From Allobosea sp. CRIB-10 (lineage in GTDB: Bacteria > Pseudomonadota > Alphaproteobacteria > Rhizobiales > Beijerinckiaceae), in the NCBI RefSeq assembly GCF_900112185.1, contig NZ_FOKP01000002.1, forward strand, positions 124,001 to 188,000: a stretch of DNA of 64,000 bases. The letters are read 5' to 3'. A program made the translations under genes and the position numbers. Below, piece by piece: positions 43,952 through 49,005 of this stretch (within the stretch, counting starts at the first letter, position 1; the number at the start of each line of letters is the position of its first letter). Under the pieces are notes generated by a model. It was not told the origin of the DNA. It did no database searches and saw only the letters and a list, made by a program, of their open reading frames with translations.

Positions 43952-44914
43952 ATGTTTCAGAGCTATGCACCGACGGCGGGTGGCCAGACCGCTGCCGAGC
44001 TCGCCGATGGAGAGGTGATCGAGGCGATCCGCCATCACGCCGGCTTCCTGCCGGAGGTTCAGCTCGCCTATGAGGAGGAGCTGCGTCTGCTCTGGGTCAC
44101 CATCAAGCCGGAGCTGAAGCCGGTCTTCACGCTGCAGCTGCTCGAGAGTCTCGGCAAGGTGCAGCAGGCGATCATCGACCTCTGGGGAGCGCCCGAGCAG
44201 TACCACAGCGCGCCGGTGCGCTTCCTCGCCTTCCGCGGCACGGGGCCGTTCTTCACCCTCGGCGGCGATCTCGACTTCTACCTCGATTGTCTCGCCAAGA
44301 ACGATCGTCCGGCCCTGGCTGAGTATGCCCGGCTCTCGGTCGAGGACGCCTTGCGCAATGCCAGCGGCCTCAACGGCATGGCCGTCACCCTGTCGACGAT
44401 CCACGCCAAGGCGATCGGCGGCGGCATCGACGCGCCGCGCTCATGCAACATCATGATCGCCGAGGAACAGGCCTCGTTCGTCTACCCCGAGATCAAGTTC
44501 AACCATTTCCCGATCACGGCCGTCGGGCTGCTGTCGCGCCGCATGGGTCCGCGCGCCGCCGAGCACATGCTGCAATCCGGCGAGGAGATGAGCGCCGCCG
44601 AGTTCCTGGCCGCGGGCGGGCTGGAAGCGGTCGTTCCGACCGGCACCGGCGAGGACTGGATCCGCAAATACGCGTCCGACTCGCTGCCGATCCACGCAGC
44701 CCGCACCGCCCTGTTCTCGGCCTTCAACCGCCGCGCCGGCAATCTGCGCGAGGAGCTCGACTATCTCGGCCAGCTCTGGACCGACTGCATGCTGCGCCTG
44801 CACCCGAGCGCGATCTCGAAGCTGCAGCGCATCGCCCAGACCCAGGACCGCATGCTGGCGCGCGTGTACCAGCGCAGCCCCGAAGAGGCCTTCGCCAGTG
44901 CCGGCGCGGCCTGA
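43952..44914 (+). CDS. RpfF-like crotonase, putative diffusible signal factor synthase with Glu-to-Asp substitution
   Basis: A 320-residue enoyl-CoA hydratase-fold protein. The segments FFTLGGDLDFYLDCLAKND and ARLSVEDALRN align with RpfF, the enzyme that makes cis-2-unsaturated fatty acid signals (DSF). In Xanthomonas RpfF the catalytic residues are Glu141 (GGGFEAALSC) and Glu161 (PEVLF), 20 apart. Here the equivalents are Asp160 (GGGIDAPRSC) and Glu180 (PEIKF), also 20 apart. So one acid is shortened to Asp. Activity may be altered or lost; other crotonase functions are possible. The next gene is a GGDEF-EAL protein, which fits DSF/c-di-GMP signalling. Confidence 0.75.
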   Translation: MFQSYAPTAGGQTAAELADGEVIEAIRHHAGFLPEVQLAYEEELRLLWVTIKPELKPVFTLQLLESLGKVQQAIIDLWGAPEQYHSAPVRFLAFRGTGPFFTLGGDLDFYLDCLAKNDRPALAEYARLSVEDALRNASGLNGMAVTLSTIHAKAIGGGIDAPRSCNIMIAEEQASFVYPEIKFNHFPITAVGLLSRRMGPRAAEHMLQSGEEMSAAEFLAAGGLEAVVPTGTGEDWIRKYASDSLPIHAARTALFSAFNRRAGNLREELDYLGQLWTDCMLRLHPSAISKLQRIAQTQDRMLARVYQRSPEEAFASAGAA

Positions 44915-44928
44915 ATGAACCGTCAAAT

Positions 44929-44968
44929 GGAGTCGCACGATCGGCATTCGCGCCGATCGTGCGACTCC
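44929..44968 (+). terminator. Perfect 17-bp hairpin after the RpfF-like gene
   Basis: GGAGTCGCACGATCGGC (44929-44945) is exactly complementary to GCCGATCGTGCGACTCC (44952-44968), with loop ATTCGC, 14 bp after the stop. No T-run follows, so it may be a mRNA-stabilising hairpin or a binding site rather than a terminator. Confidence 0.65.
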
Positions 44969-45082
44969 GCCGTGTAACTCTCATGAAACTTTTACCTTTC
45001 CCTCTTATAGCCGTTAGGTGATGCGGCACAGGATGGGCTCGTTCACCCGCCTCTCCCGAGACCGTCAAAAAGGCAGGAGTGG

Positions 45083-47443
45083 ATGGCGGGAGTGCCGAAC
45101 CGGTTGCATAGCGCCAGCGCCGACAGAGCGATCGCAGAGCAGCCGGCCGGACACGAAGGCCGGAGCGCGGTTGATCTCGCCGATTATCGCCTGCTCGTCT
45201 CTTCCCTGTTCTCCTCGCCCGGCTCGATCATCCCGGGCGGGATCGCCGGCATCCTGACGCCTTTCCTGTGCTGGGTCGCGACCCGGGCCGAGCTGTTCAT
45301 GGTTCTGACGATCTGCGTCGCGCTCGTCGTCGTCATGCGGATCATCACGGTCGTCCGGTATCGCAGGCTCGACCATTCCGAGGATACACTCGCCCAGACC
45401 GAGCGCTGGGACCGCGAATATTTCTTCGGCGCCACCGTGTTCAGCGCGGTGCTCGGTTTCAGCTGCTATGCGGCGCTGGCCTGGACGGACGATGCCGCCG
45501 CCCACATCACCTCGGTCTCGTCGACGATCGCGCTCGCCTCCGGCTATGTCGCGCGCAATGCCGGGCGGCCGAAATTCGTCGCCGTTCAGCTTCTGACCTT
45601 CTGCGTGCCGATGGCGATCGGCCTGATCCAGGCGCACAACCCCTATTACCAGTATATCGGCTATTTTGCCTTCCTCTATGTCGTCGCCAACATCGCGATC
45701 ACCAACTCGCTGCATCGCAACCTGCTGGCGTTGAGCGACGCCACCAAGCAATCCAAGGCGCTGGCGACGGCGCTGCGCTCGCAGAACCTGACGCTCGACG
45801 CCGCGCTCAACACGATGATCCACGGGCTGGCGATGTTCGACCGCAAGCTCGACCTCGCGGTCTCGAACGCGCCGCACGCCGCGCTCTACGGCATTCCGGA
45901 GACGCTTGCTTTGCCCGGCACGCCGATCAGCGCGATCGCGCGTTTCCTGGTCGAGCGGCAAGTGATGAACCCCGAGCAGGTGCGCGACATCAAGGCGGCC
46001 CTCGATGGTGTCCAGGCGACGCAGCAGGCGGCCGTCTACGAATTGCAGTCGCGCAACGGCCGGATGCTCGTCGTCACCATCGCGCCCGCGGCCGAAGGCG
46101 GCGTGCTGATGCTGACCGAGGACGCGACCGAGCGGAAGGCGACCGAAGCGCGGATCGAGCAGATGGCGCGCTTCGACGAACTGACCGGGCTCGCGAACCG
46201 CTTCGAGTTCAACACGCAGCTCGCCGACGCCTTCCGGCGGCAGGAGCGCACCGGCGAGACCTTCGCGCTGCTCTATATCGACCTAGACGGCTTCAAACAG
46301 GTCAACGACAATCTCGGTCACGACATCGGCGACCGCGTGCTGATCCAGACGGCGGCGCGCCTGAAGAGTGCGATCCGCCACAACGACCTGCTGGCGCGCT
46401 TCGGCGGCGACGAATTCGTGCTGATCCTGCCGGCGACCGATGTCGCGACGGTCCGGATGATCGCGCAGCGCATGATCGAGGCGATGGACCGCGCTTTCGA
46501 GCTCGAGACCAAGACCGTCTATGTCACCGCCAGCATCGGCATCGCGCTCGCGCCGACAGACGGCGCGACGCCGGCCGACCTGCTGCGCCATGCCGACACG
46601 GCGCTCTACAAGGCCAAGGGCGCCGGCCGCAACACCGCGACCTTCTTCGACCCGGCCATGGCCGAGGAGATGCTCGAACGCCACGAGATCGAGGTCGATC
46701 TGCGCCAGGCGACCACCGAAGGCGCGCTGGAACTGTACTACCAGCCGATCATCGACCTGCGCACGCAGGAGATCGTGACGCGCGAGGCGCTGATGCGCTG
46801 GCGCCACCCGACGCGCGGCATGGTGCCGCCCGGCGTCTTCATCCCGATCGCCGAGCAATCCGGCCTGATCGCCGGGATGGGCGACTGGGCCATCCGCCAG
46901 GCCTGCCGCGACGCGGCGAAATGGCCCGGCGGAATCGGCGTTTCCGTCAACATCTCGCCGCTGCAGTTCCGCGAGCCGGGGCGGATCGTCGAGACCGTCA
47001 AGAACGCGCTGCTGCTCGCCCATCTCGCGCCGGGCCGCCTGACGCTCGAAGTGACGGAATCGCTGCTGATCGAGGACAACAAGACGACGCTCGAGGTGAT
47101 CAACGAATTGCGCGCGATCGGCGTCAAGTTCGCACTCGACGATTTCGGGACGGGCTATTCCTCGCTCGCCTATCTCTCGACCTACCCGTTCTCGCAGGTG
47201 AAGATCGACCAGAGCTTCAGCCGCGACGTCAACAGCGACGAGGCCTCCAAAGCGGTGATCGAGGCGGTCTGCCAGCTCGCCCGGAGGCTGTCGATGAACG
47301 TCGTCGTCGAGGGAATCGAGACCGAGGCGCAGCGCATGGCGGTGCAACTCCTCGGCGCACAGCGGGCCCAGGGCTATCTGTTCGGCCGGCCGCAACCTGT
47401 GTCGGAGTTCAGCAAGGGCGACGAGCCGCGCAAGATCGCCTGA
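45083..47443 (+). CDS. Membrane-bound GGDEF-EAL protein
   Basis: A 786-residue protein with both c-di-GMP synthesis and degradation domains. The N-terminal 220 residues hold four or more membrane spans. A PAS-like domain (about 235-345, LDAALNTMIHGLAMFDRKLD) comes next. GGDEF is exact (441-445), and the inhibitory site RHND (432-435) precedes it by five residues. EAL is intact (568-570, EALMRW), with DDFGTGYSSL and the KID and EGIE motifs, so both activities look possible. It follows the RpfF-like gene after 168 bp on the same strand. The first in-frame ATG with a GGAG site is used. Confidence 0.93.
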   Translation: MAGVPNRLHSASADRAIAEQPAGHEGRSAVDLADYRLLVSSLFSSPGSIIPGGIAGILTPFLCWVATRAELFMVLTICVALVVVMRIITVVRYRRLDHSEDTLAQTERWDREYFFGATVFSAVLGFSCYAALAWTDDAAAHITSVSSTIALASGYVARNAGRPKFVAVQLLTFCVPMAIGLIQAHNPYYQYIGYFAFLYVVANIAITNSLHRNLLALSDATKQSKALATALRSQNLTLDAALNTMIHGLAMFDRKLDLAVSNAPHAALYGIPETLALPGTPISAIARFLVERQVMNPEQVRDIKAALDGVQATQQAAVYELQSRNGRMLVVTIAPAAEGGVLMLTEDATERKATEARIEQMARFDELTGLANRFEFNTQLADAFRRQERTGETFALLYIDLDGFKQVNDNLGHDIGDRVLIQTAARLKSAIRHNDLLARFGGDEFVLILPATDVATVRMIAQRMIEAMDRAFELETKTVYVTASIGIALAPTDGATPADLLRHADTALYKAKGAGRNTATFFDPAMAEEMLERHEIEVDLRQATTEGALELYYQPIIDLRTQEIVTREALMRWRHPTRGMVPPGVFIPIAEQSGLIAGMGDWAIRQACRDAAKWPGGIGVSVNISPLQFREPGRIVETVKNALLLAHLAPGRLTLEVTESLLIEDNKTTLEVINELRAIGVKFALDDFGTGYSSLAYLSTYPFSQVKIDQSFSRDVNSDEASKAVIEAVCQLARRLSMNVVVEGIETEAQRMAVQLLGAQRAQGYLFGRPQPVSEFSKGDEPRKIA

Positions 47444-47559: not shown

Positions 47560-49005
47560 GTGAGCGAAACCGCCAGCCCAGCAGCCAGCAAGGAGCCGCT
47601 GACGCCGGATATCTGCGTCATCGGCGATGGCCCGGGTGGGCTCGCGGTCGCGACCGCCGCCGCGCTGTTCGGCGTCCGCACGGTGCTGATCAGGCAAGGC
47701 GGCGGCGCCTATCCGCTGAATGAAGGCGCGCGCGGCCAGGCCTTGCGTGCCGTCGCCGCTCAGGCGCGACTGATCGCCGGCGCCGCGGCCTTCGGCACCG
47801 TACCGGATACGAGCCAGATCGATTTCGGGCGCGTGCGAGCTCATCTCGACCAGGTTGCGGCTCGCTCGGCCGTGAACGACTCGGATGAGCGCTTGGCGGC
47901 CCTGGGTGTCCTCGTGCTCAAGGGCGATGCGCGTTTCCAGAACCGCCATCAGATCGTCGTCGGCGAGACGGTGATCAAGGCGCGACGCTTCGTCGTCGCG
48001 ACCGGATCATTGCCGACGATGCCTGACATTCCGGGCCTCGCCGACCTGCCCTGCCTGACCGAGGACGGCATCTTCGAGCTGGCGAAACGGCCGGAGCGAC
48101 TGATTGTGCTCGGAGGCACGGCAACGGCAGTCGAACTGGCGCAGGCGATGCGTGCACTCGGCTGCGAGGTCGCACTGATCGCGCGGGAAGGCCTCTTGCC
48201 CGACGAGGACCCGGAAGCGGTCGGGGTGCTCCGGCGCAGCCTGCTCGGCGAAGGCGTGACCTTGCATGAAGGCCGGCCGATCCTGCGCGCCGAGAGCCAT
48301 CGGCAGCGGCCTCGCCTCGTGCTCGACGGCGAGATCAGGATCGACGGCACGCATCTCCTGGTCGCGAATGGGCGCCGGCCGAATGTTTCAGGCCTCGAGC
48401 TCGATCTCGCCGGGGTCCGCAGCGACGAGGCCGGCATCATCGTCGACGCCTCGCTGCGCAGCGCCAATCGCAGCATCTACGCCATCGGCGCATGCGCCGG
48501 CGGCGCGGCCGCCGGACCGGCATCGAGCCATGCCGCTCAGCATCAGGCCGGGCTGGTGCTGCGCAACGCCCTGTTCCGCCAGCCGGTCCGCTTCAGGCGC
48601 GAGCTGGTGCCGCGCACCGTCCATGCCAGTCCAGAACTGGCATGCGTCGGCCTGAACGAGGCGCAGGCGCGCGCGCAAAGCGAGATCCGGGTGCTGCGCT
48701 TTCCCTATGCCGAGAGCGCACGTGCCCAGGCCGAGCGGCAGAGCGAAGGGCTGATCAAGCTGATGACTGACCGCAAGGGCGGCATCCTCGGCGTCGTCAT
48801 CGCCGGGGCTCAGGCGGCCGAACTGATCGTGCCCTGGGGTCTTTCCGTGCAGAAGCGGATGAATGTCAGGGAGATGGCCGGGCTGATCGCGCCATTCCAG
48901 AGCCTGTCGGAGCTGTCGCAGAAAGCGGCGCTCTCGTTCCAGGCGCCGCTCGCGGCCAAGCCCGGCATTCGCCGCCTCATCGGCTTCCTGCGCCGTTTCG
49001 GATAG
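47560..49005 (+). CDS. Pyridine nucleotide-disulphide oxidoreductase-like flavoprotein without redox-active cysteines
   Basis: A 481-residue protein with the fold of lipoamide dehydrogenase and mercuric reductase. The FAD motif VIGDGPGGLAVATAAA (20-35), the NAD motif VLGGTATAVELAQAM (about 182-196) and the second FAD motif SIYAIGACAGG are present. The region that should hold the C-x4-C disulphide reads RQGGGAYPLNEGARGQAL and has no cysteine. The C-terminal His-x4-Glu catalytic pair is also missing (IAPFQSLSELSQK). It starts with GTG at 47560, after GGAGATGCG. It likely lacks disulphide chemistry and may be a redox sensor or oxidase. A sensor kinase gene follows after 11 bp. Confidence 0.85.
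   Translation: MSETASPAASKEPLTPDICVIGDGPGGLAVATAAALFGVRTVLIRQGGGAYPLNEGARGQALRAVAAQARLIAGAAAFGTVPDTSQIDFGRVRAHLDQVAARSAVNDSDERLAALGVLVLKGDARFQNRHQIVVGETVIKARRFVVATGSLPTMPDIPGLADLPCLTEDGIFELAKRPERLIVLGGTATAVELAQAMRALGCEVALIAREGLLPDEDPEAVGVLRRSLLGEGVTLHEGRPILRAESHRQRPRLVLDGEIRIDGTHLLVANGRRPNVSGLELDLAGVRSDEAGIIVDASLRSANRSIYAIGACAGGAAAGPASSHAAQHQAGLVLRNALFRQPVRFRRELVPRTVHASPELACVGLNEAQARAQSEIRVLRFPYAESARAQAERQSEGLIKLMTDRKGGILGVVIAGAQAAELIVPWGLSVQKRMNVREMAGLIAPFQSLSELSQKAALSFQAPLAAKPGIRRLIGFLRRFG

Follow-up and report, generated by a model that had tools for sequence, protein, structure and literature searches.

Introduction

Descriptions of how bacteria perceive diffusible signal factor (DSF) center mainly on RpfC and RpfR, two types of receptor (PMC4504480). 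RpfC senses DSF via a short N-terminal region beside its membrane helices (PMC5391125). In the RpfF/RpfR system, binding of the signal to the PAS domain activates breakdown of cyclic di-GMP (c-di-GMP), and the RpfF-interaction (FI) domain restrains the synthase (PMC6361424). Here we analyze a stretch of 64,000 nucleotides from Allobosea sp. CRIB-10 (contig NZ_FOKP01000002.1, positions 124,001 to 188,000; hereafter the window), in which a gene for an RpfF-like crotonase is followed by a gene for a protein with a predicted membrane domain and PAS, GGDEF and EAL domains. The crotonase carries an aspartate, Asp160, at the place of the first catalytic glutamate of RpfF. We call it and its close relatives Asp-type, and relatives with the canonical residue Glu-type. 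An earlier inspection of the window from its letters (the sequence-only reading) had proposed that the pair links a fatty-acid signal to c-di-GMP.

Results

Family and Predicted Fold of the Crotonase

When the PDB was searched by sequence, the best matches of the crotonase were the RpfF chains 7zq7, 5fus, 6dgn and 3m6m, with E values of 7e-23 to 2e-20, and the next-best relative followed at 7e-9. Its Pfam domain is ECH_1, of the crotonase superfamily. The phmmer alignments to the four RpfF chains were used to place the catalytic positions: D160 aligns with the GGGFEA glutamate and E180 with that of PE, with a spacing of 20 residues. These alignments bear out the earlier claim of two acidic positions 20 residues apart, the first of them Asp160. 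All fold comparisons were based on an AlphaFold model of the crotonase with a predicted local distance difference test (pLDDT) score of 81.5. RpfF or DfsA structures occupied ranks 1 to 12 in Foldseek, and VIA-align returned Z scores of 31.4 (5fus, root mean square deviation 2.1, 267 aligned), 31.0 (6dgn), 29.9, 29.8 and 29.1; the best non-RpfF entry, an ordinary enoyl-coenzyme A (CoA) hydratase, reached 25.9. The predicted fold is that of RpfF, the DSF synthase, and the "RpfF-specific" shape noticed earlier agrees with this model, which lies nearest RpfF by both methods.

The curated families give a more qualified picture. The NCBIfam equivalog for RpfF, NF053515, gives the window crotonase 99 bits, below its cut-off of 550; this family is narrow, scoring the crotonase of locus L217, which is near-identical to 7zq7, at 579.6 and four Glu-type alphaproteobacterial relatives at only 95 to 237. 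The closest curated family is PRK08788 (NF006452), whose name, "crotonase/enoyl-CoA hydratase family protein," gives no function. The window crotonase scores 166.7 bits there, below the cut-off of 177, and five other Asp-type proteins score 194.2, 204.3, 184.1, 172.7 and 185.5, four of them exceeding it. As RpfF is defined by a pair of glutamates and the first residue here is Asp160, we class the protein as RpfF-like, not as RpfF. Its own genome holds six other crotonase matches (E ≤ 1e-5), all at 6e-10 or weaker, and no second RpfF-like gene among them.

We built a quick tree of 143 rows, comprising 26 Asp-type and 112 Glu-type sequences and, as outgroup, five generic crotonases of the same genome. 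All 26 Asp-type rows fell in a single clade with a Shimodaira–Hasegawa-like approximate likelihood ratio test (SH-aLRT) support of 100, and the RpfF-like group (138 rows, PDB RpfFs included) was separated from the generic crotonases, also with a support of 100. The Asp-type clade sits near the base of the RpfF-like group, where support for its nearest sister is modest (83), and its stem is long, at 1.55 changes per column. This topology should be read with the sampling in mind: most rows were drawn by Asp-type profile searches, the outgroup is small, the search was quick, and it carried a long-branch warning. The homology to RpfF put forward earlier is upheld by the sequence and fold matches and by a tree position with RpfF-like proteins, apart from ordinary crotonases.

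Active-Site Changes Fixed in the Asp-Type Clade

Loci were assigned to the Asp-type by a profile score above 300 bits; in a family sample of 149 genomes the scores split cleanly, with 17 matches scoring at least 378 bits and the other 39 no more than 199. The site alignment holds the 26 Asp-type rows (one contig twice) and the 112 Glu-type rows (including four PDB chains and five second copies). Both types share LGGDL and GGG, the oxyanion-hole motifs of crotonases. Position 160 is Asp in 26/26 Asp-type and Glu in 112/112 Glu-type rows. The glycine that follows FP in every Glu-type row is a gap in every Asp-type row, leaving a loop one residue shorter than in RpfF, and position 185 is His in all 26 Asp-type rows versus Leu in 79% of the Glu-type. 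Two further positions differ, with Ile versus Phe (81%) at position 159 and Tyr versus Phe (94%) at position 110, Asp-type residue first. Asp160, the deleted glycine and His185 thus appear, in the alignment, as one fixed package of the Asp-type proteins.

A wider set of 63 fetched Asp-type loci, at least seven of which are contigs fetched twice (about 56 distinct), addressed the conservation of Asp160 that had been suggested as a check. Codon 160 is GAC in 43 loci and GAT in 20. Since Glu is just one third-position change away and yet Asp is found in 63/63, its conservation goes beyond chance. Glu180 is likewise Glu in 63/63. Among 40 Bosea loci, four-fold degenerate sites differ at 0.397 versus 0.127 at first and second codon positions; therefore, the crotonase gene is under purifying selection.

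In enoyl-CoA hydratase, water is activated by Glu144 and C2 is protonated by Glu164, and in isomerases the catalytic Glu may sit at the Gly172 loop (PMC13126182). The Glu pair is cited in a study of DspI among the features that tell hydratases from isomerases (PMC5834635), and its members are named E141 and E161 in Xylella RpfF (PMC4958263). Because of these roles of Glu144, Glu164 and the Gly172 loop, both altered places bear on chemistry, and the Asp-type clade would differ from its relatives at two chemistry-relevant places. The deleted glycine we take to be the counterpart of Gly172, judging from the rat sequence, in that it lies eight residues past the second Glu in both. The sequence-only reading had raised changed enzyme chemistry as a possibility; this now seems likelier, as the Asp is accompanied by loss of the loop glycine and gain of an invariant His. 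The loop deletion, His185 and the membrane domain as a shared element had not been mentioned there.

Pairing with a Membrane-PAS-GGDEF-EAL Protein

The crotonase and GGDEF-EAL genes run in the same direction with 168 bases between them. A homologue of the window's GGDEF-EAL protein adjoins the crotonase in 47/47 loci of its relatives, 31 of which are titled Bosea; the closest are 92 to 97% identical. The informative loci outside Bosea come from Methylocystis, Enterovirga, two Jiella and two metagenome-assembled genomes (L049 and L050, with the genes in reversed order, sharing other neighbors and probably representing one lineage), and none of them contains the Bosea flanking genes that were searched for. 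Across the 63 Asp-type loci, every one has a GGDEF-EAL neighbor and every one has a membrane-domain partner on the same strand within 1.5 kb. The gene order is reversed in L049/L050/L112, L116 and L120, and in L054 the nearest GGDEF-EAL protein is a different, upstream one, with the membrane-domain partner 482 bases downstream. The conserved c-di-GMP neighborhood predicted for the pair is therefore found in 63/63 Asp-type loci, in either order and beyond Bosea, with one plasmid exception from outside this set. This is an Asp-type gene on pANAM02 (NZ_AP022849.1, Bosea sp. ANAM02), which is 68% identical and keeps the Asp, Glu, His and short loop. The plasmid (L256, L263, L265, L266) carries three RpfF-like crotonases: the Asp-type one, one adjoining a membrane-domain protein, and one more.

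A profile of the membrane domain, built from the partners, gave 84 matches in the family sample; the high rank of the partners is partly circular, the adjacency less so. Such a match lies within 3.5 kb of 17/17 Asp-type and 15/39 Glu-type crotonases. By chance, ∼0.09 adjacent pairs would be expected versus 32 seen, and 29 of the 30 best-scoring domain matches are adjacent to a crotonase. With adjacency this far above chance, the specific link to a c-di-GMP protein proposed from the window stands. In a tree of the domain, 26 Asp-type partners and three proteins that have no adjacent crotonase form one clade (98/92). The distances among crotonases and among their partners correlate (r = 0.83, 34 loci; 0/2000 permutations as high), within the Asp-type (0.82, n = 17) and within the Glu-type (0.95, n = 17) alike, again with 0/2000 permutations each.

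Of the 149 genomes in the family sample, 17, spread over six genus groups, have an Asp-type gene. Among 397 genomes of the order, matches at E ≤ 1e-66 were only three, all from the window's genus, and outside the family only two Jiella (Aurantimonadaceae by NCBI) are known to carry the type. Asp-type genes therefore look confined. G656, a genome of the same genus as the window, has no RpfF-like gene other than a Glu-type one, which stands in the RpfC layout. In a phylum sample, RpfF-like matches came from 51 genomes; 33 of these belonged to group f215, whose genomes are small (1.2 to 3.0 Mb) and in many cases incomplete.

Layouts of the Glu-Type Relatives

Within 1.5 kb of the crotonase, 84 Glu-type loci show 19 with the membrane domain, 40 with an RpfC-like kinase, always convergent, and 25 with neither. 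Four of these 25 have a convergent GGDEF-EAL protein without the domain, as RpfR would be, and one, L163, has such a kinase two genes away. The membrane domain and an RpfC-like kinase stood together within 1.5 kb of a crotonase in no fetched locus examined, and an RpfC-like kinase was found within that distance in 0/63 Asp-type loci. Three of three RpfC-like proteins checked have HisKA, HATPase and receiver domains, two of them also Hpt. As a control, the RpfC-like profile detects the convergent neighbor in L217; a search of the window's own genome for the RpfC-like input region, run without a positive control, gave no match. An RpfC-like kinase faces the crotonase within 1.5 kb in 34 of 70 fetched alphaproteobacterial Glu-type loci. 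The literature does bear out the earlier remark that gammaproteobacteria and Burkholderia hold the best-known DSF systems; in the sampled alphaproteobacteria, Glu-type relatives in the RpfC layout are common as well.

In L123, L127, L152, L167, L168, L171 and other Glu-type loci, as often among alphaproteobacterial RpfF relatives, the crotonase gene converges on that of an RpfC-like hybrid kinase. Behind these kinases, where Xanthomonas has RpfG, lies a receiver-PAS-GGDEF-EAL or a receiver-PAS-kinase protein (one of each was domain-checked). L259, on a plasmid of Bosea sp. RAC05 (NZ_CP016463.1), is Glu-type and has no annotated c-di-GMP or RpfC-like gene within 5 kb.

Domains of the Partner

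The partner retains GGDEF, an RxxD I-site (residue 432), EALMRW, N623, EVTE, DDFGTGY, KID and EGIE, so that both sets of active motifs and the I-site reported in the sequence-only reading can all be read in it. The I-site is present in 50 of the 63 Asp-type partners, and all 13 that lack it come from outside Bosea. PAS was not found in five of the 63 (L117, L118, L119, L121 and L122), which have shorter open reading frames with no match to the window's PAS. In two Methylocystis-type partners (L048 and L114) AGDEF replaces GGDEF, which suggests that cyclase activity is reduced or gone there and phosphodiesterase activity retained.

The helices of the membrane domain in the AlphaFold model span residues 46–67, 70–95, 103–134, 138–158, 163–183 and 187–244, the last continuing as a long helix. 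Hydropathy exceeds 1.3 for five of the six, with 138–158 under this threshold, and the membrane topology of the N terminus is a prediction. The domain is present in 63/63 Asp-type partners. No Pfam family scored above its cut-off on this domain in any of seven sequences (best E value, 0.0057), and its assignment to a known Pfam sensor was dropped. Kinship with the RpfC input region was not supported either (hhalign probability 0.4%, E value 0.09). PAS as the common fatty-acid sensor, as in RpfR, was set aside given the five partners that show none. A Foldseek search with the whole partner was dominated by GGDEF and EAL structures and was uninformative on the membrane domain.

Intergenic and Flanking Features

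The positions of the features are collected in Table 1. No T run lies behind the hairpin that follows the crotonase stop, and similar hairpins occur only in the closest Bosea-like loci, L008–L010 and L014. The hairpin might restrict or adjust read-through from the crotonase gene into that of its partner. As a conserved element of the pair it was not supported, copies being confined to the nearest loci. Downstream, window positions 47560–49005 encode a flavin adenine dinucleotide (FAD)-dependent disulfide oxidoreductase that is ∼44 to 56% identical in more distant Bosea loci; a histidine kinase and a LexA-like gene behind it are better kept there, at ∼73 to 94%. By crude gene calling, no third gene recurs widely as part of a conserved module, and neighbors shared outside Bosea are found mainly among near relatives.

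Table 1. Features of the gene pair, in window coordinates
Feature	Position	Strand	Basis
RpfF-like crotonase gene, Asp-type, 320 amino acids	43952..44914	+	Open reading frame, sequence and fold matches, clade
Asp160 codon (GAC), place of first catalytic Glu of RpfF	44429..44431	+	Alignment
Glu180 codon (GAG), place of second catalytic Glu of RpfF	44489..44491	+	Alignment
HFPIT loop, residues 185–189; His185 invariant, Gly after FP missing	44504..44518	+	Alignment
Perfect 17-bp inverted repeat with 6-nt loop, right after crotonase stop	44929..44968	+	Sequence read directly
Membrane-PAS-GGDEF-EAL protein, 786 amino acids	45083..47443	+	Open reading frame, Pfam, AlphaFold, motifs
Membrane domain, uncharacterised, six predicted helices, residues 31–244	45173..45814	+	AlphaFold, hydropathy
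PAS_7 domain, residues 242–355	45806..46147	+	Pfam
GGDEF domain; RxxD I-site at 46376–46387	46169..46633	+	Pfam, motifs
EAL domain, catalytic motifs intact	46697..47392	+	Pfam, motifs

Discussion

We favor, with a confidence somewhat short of even, the reading that the two genes form a signaling module in which an acyl-thioester enzyme of altered chemistry yields a product that sets the c-di-GMP activity of its partner. The crotonase would be an RpfF-family acyl-thioester enzyme that keeps LGGDL, GGG and a carboxylate pair, Asp160/Glu180. Its water- and proton-handling site would have been rebuilt through three changes, namely a shorter acidic side chain at position 160, the absence of the loop glycine, and His185. 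Its product would probably be a fatty acid other than, or additional to, the cis-2 acids that RpfF makes from 3-hydroxyacyl-ACP. The six-helix domain would probably detect this product within the membrane, and detection would shift the balance of GGDEF versus EAL activity, hence the c-di-GMP level. Of the membrane domain and PAS, only the former is common to all partners, which makes it the prime candidate surface for sensing or docking. By analogy with the RpfF–RpfR pair, which acts through c-di-GMP (PMC6361424), we infer that the crotonase either provides an acyl signal or detects one, and that its partner turns this signal into c-di-GMP.

Several observations weigh against this reading. The Bosea neighborhood is syntenic as a whole, and only the non-Bosea loci test the linkage. 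The Asp-type gene of pANAM02 has, on that plasmid, no GGDEF-EAL gene within 9 kb, and the three proteins of the Asp-type partner clade mentioned above lack an adjacent crotonase. Neither cyclase feedback, given the 13 of 63 partners without the I-site, nor the cyclase itself, given AGDEF in the two Methylocystis-type partners, is uniform. Shared organism history explains part of the distance correlation, and a change from Glu to Asp can be conservative.

The crotonase might instead be regulatory, making no signal and binding an acyl ligand or its partner so as to gate the GGDEF-EAL protein by contact; a sensor role had been among the options of the sequence-only reading. We regard this as rather unlikely. 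It would explain why the first catalytic Glu and the loop glycine are gone, and there is precedent: the E141A/E161A form of Xylella RpfF senses DSF yet cannot make it (PMC4958263, PMC4504480), and RpfF is bound directly by RpfR and RpfC (PMC6361424; titles of 3m6m and 6dgn). The occurrence of the crotonase once, on the plasmid, without an adjacent partner and of the partner three times without an adjacent crotonase has also been counted in its favor. However, a protein that only binds would have no need to preserve Asp160, Glu180 and the shared glycines without exception in 63/63 loci, and the partnerless plasmid copy keeps Asp160, Glu180 and the glycines as well.

The crotonase could alternatively be an ordinary DSF synthase, in which Asp160 acts as Glu does and a cis-2-unsaturated fatty acid is sensed by the membrane partner in the manner of RpfF/RpfR. 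We consider this improbable, even with a fold and family that are those of RpfF and with the same membrane GGDEF-EAL domain beside canonical-site Glu-type relatives in 19 of 84 fetched loci. The glycine of 112/112 Glu-type rows is deleted and several mostly fixed positions differ; the clade stem, at 1.55 changes per column, is long; and the score of 99 bits against the RpfF equivalog's 550 points the same way, although four Glu-type alphaproteobacterial relatives fail that cut-off too. A metabolic enoyl-CoA hydratase lying beside a c-di-GMP gene by chance is highly improbable and largely refuted. Membership of the crotonase superfamily through ECH_1 would fit such an enzyme, and Bosea synteny alone would hold any two neighbors together. 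Yet the protein is split from five generic crotonases with a support of 100, RpfF structures match it best by a clear margin, the pairing persists outside Bosea without the Bosea flanking genes and also in reversed order, and 32 adjacent pairs were seen where ∼0.09 would be expected.

The pairing provides a defined candidate for a third route of DSF perception and, in its membrane domain, a candidate sensor among alphaproteobacteria associated with soil and plants. The clade of Asp-type proteins also amounts to a natural experiment on the signal-making parts of the RpfF site, two catalytic elements having been altered jointly and lastingly. A differing product would be a new signal; an inactive protein would mean that synthesis has been separated from sensing, as in the engineered Xylella mutant.

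Among the matches listed in a literature search, no title or abstract dealt with such a pairing, an RpfF-like gene next to one for a GGDEF-EAL protein, in Bosea or any other member of the Hyphomicrobiales, which is weak evidence of absence, and a Bradyrhizobium paper concerns RpfB/FadD and not such a pair (PMC10226988).

Several known systems share features with the locus. Outside DSF signaling, aspartate and glutamate side chains reportedly take part in catalysis by dienoyl-CoA isomerase (so the title of Modis 1998). The Asp of that enzyme sits at the first position of the pair. Asp160/Glu180 may correspond to such a pair, but the predicted fold of the crotonase is closest to RpfF, and a third acidic residue of the isomerase has no evident counterpart in it. 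On plasmids of Methylobacterium oryzae and Sphingomonas parapaucimobilis the same two families are adjacent, with membrane-domain matches of 160 and 135 bits; unlike the window pair, these Glu-type relatives have the canonical Glu pair and an FPGMG loop, and their genes are convergent. The RpfF/RpfC/RpfG system of Xanthomonas shares the RpfF fold (3m6m, 3m6n), but by Pfam the window partner, unlike RpfC, carries no kinase domain, and its membrane domain is not the RpfC input region.

RpfF/RpfR of Burkholderia and Cronobacter, the synthase and receptor of the Burkholderia diffusible signal factor (BDSF), likewise has an RpfF-fold crotonase beside a PAS-GGDEF-EAL protein; its structures 5fus and 6dgn are the nearest to our model, and the window partner, like RpfR, has PAS-GGDEF-EAL with active motifs. 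RpfR, however, is soluble, has an N-terminal FI domain and is encoded convergently with rpfF (PMC6361424, PMC4504480). In the window, a predicted six-helix membrane domain takes the place of FI (no FI profile was run) and the genes share one direction; moreover, members of the clade can do without PAS, and the first catalytic Glu has become Asp. From these comparisons of sequence, the pair looks like a third layout of RpfF-linked signaling besides RpfC/RpfG and RpfR. It is possible, though we hold it only tentatively, that in this layout a remodeled enzyme would make a fatty-acid signal other than the classical cis-2 acid and a six-helix intramembrane reader would drive a c-di-GMP cyclase/phosphodiesterase directly, dispensing with the phosphorelay and the soluble receptor.

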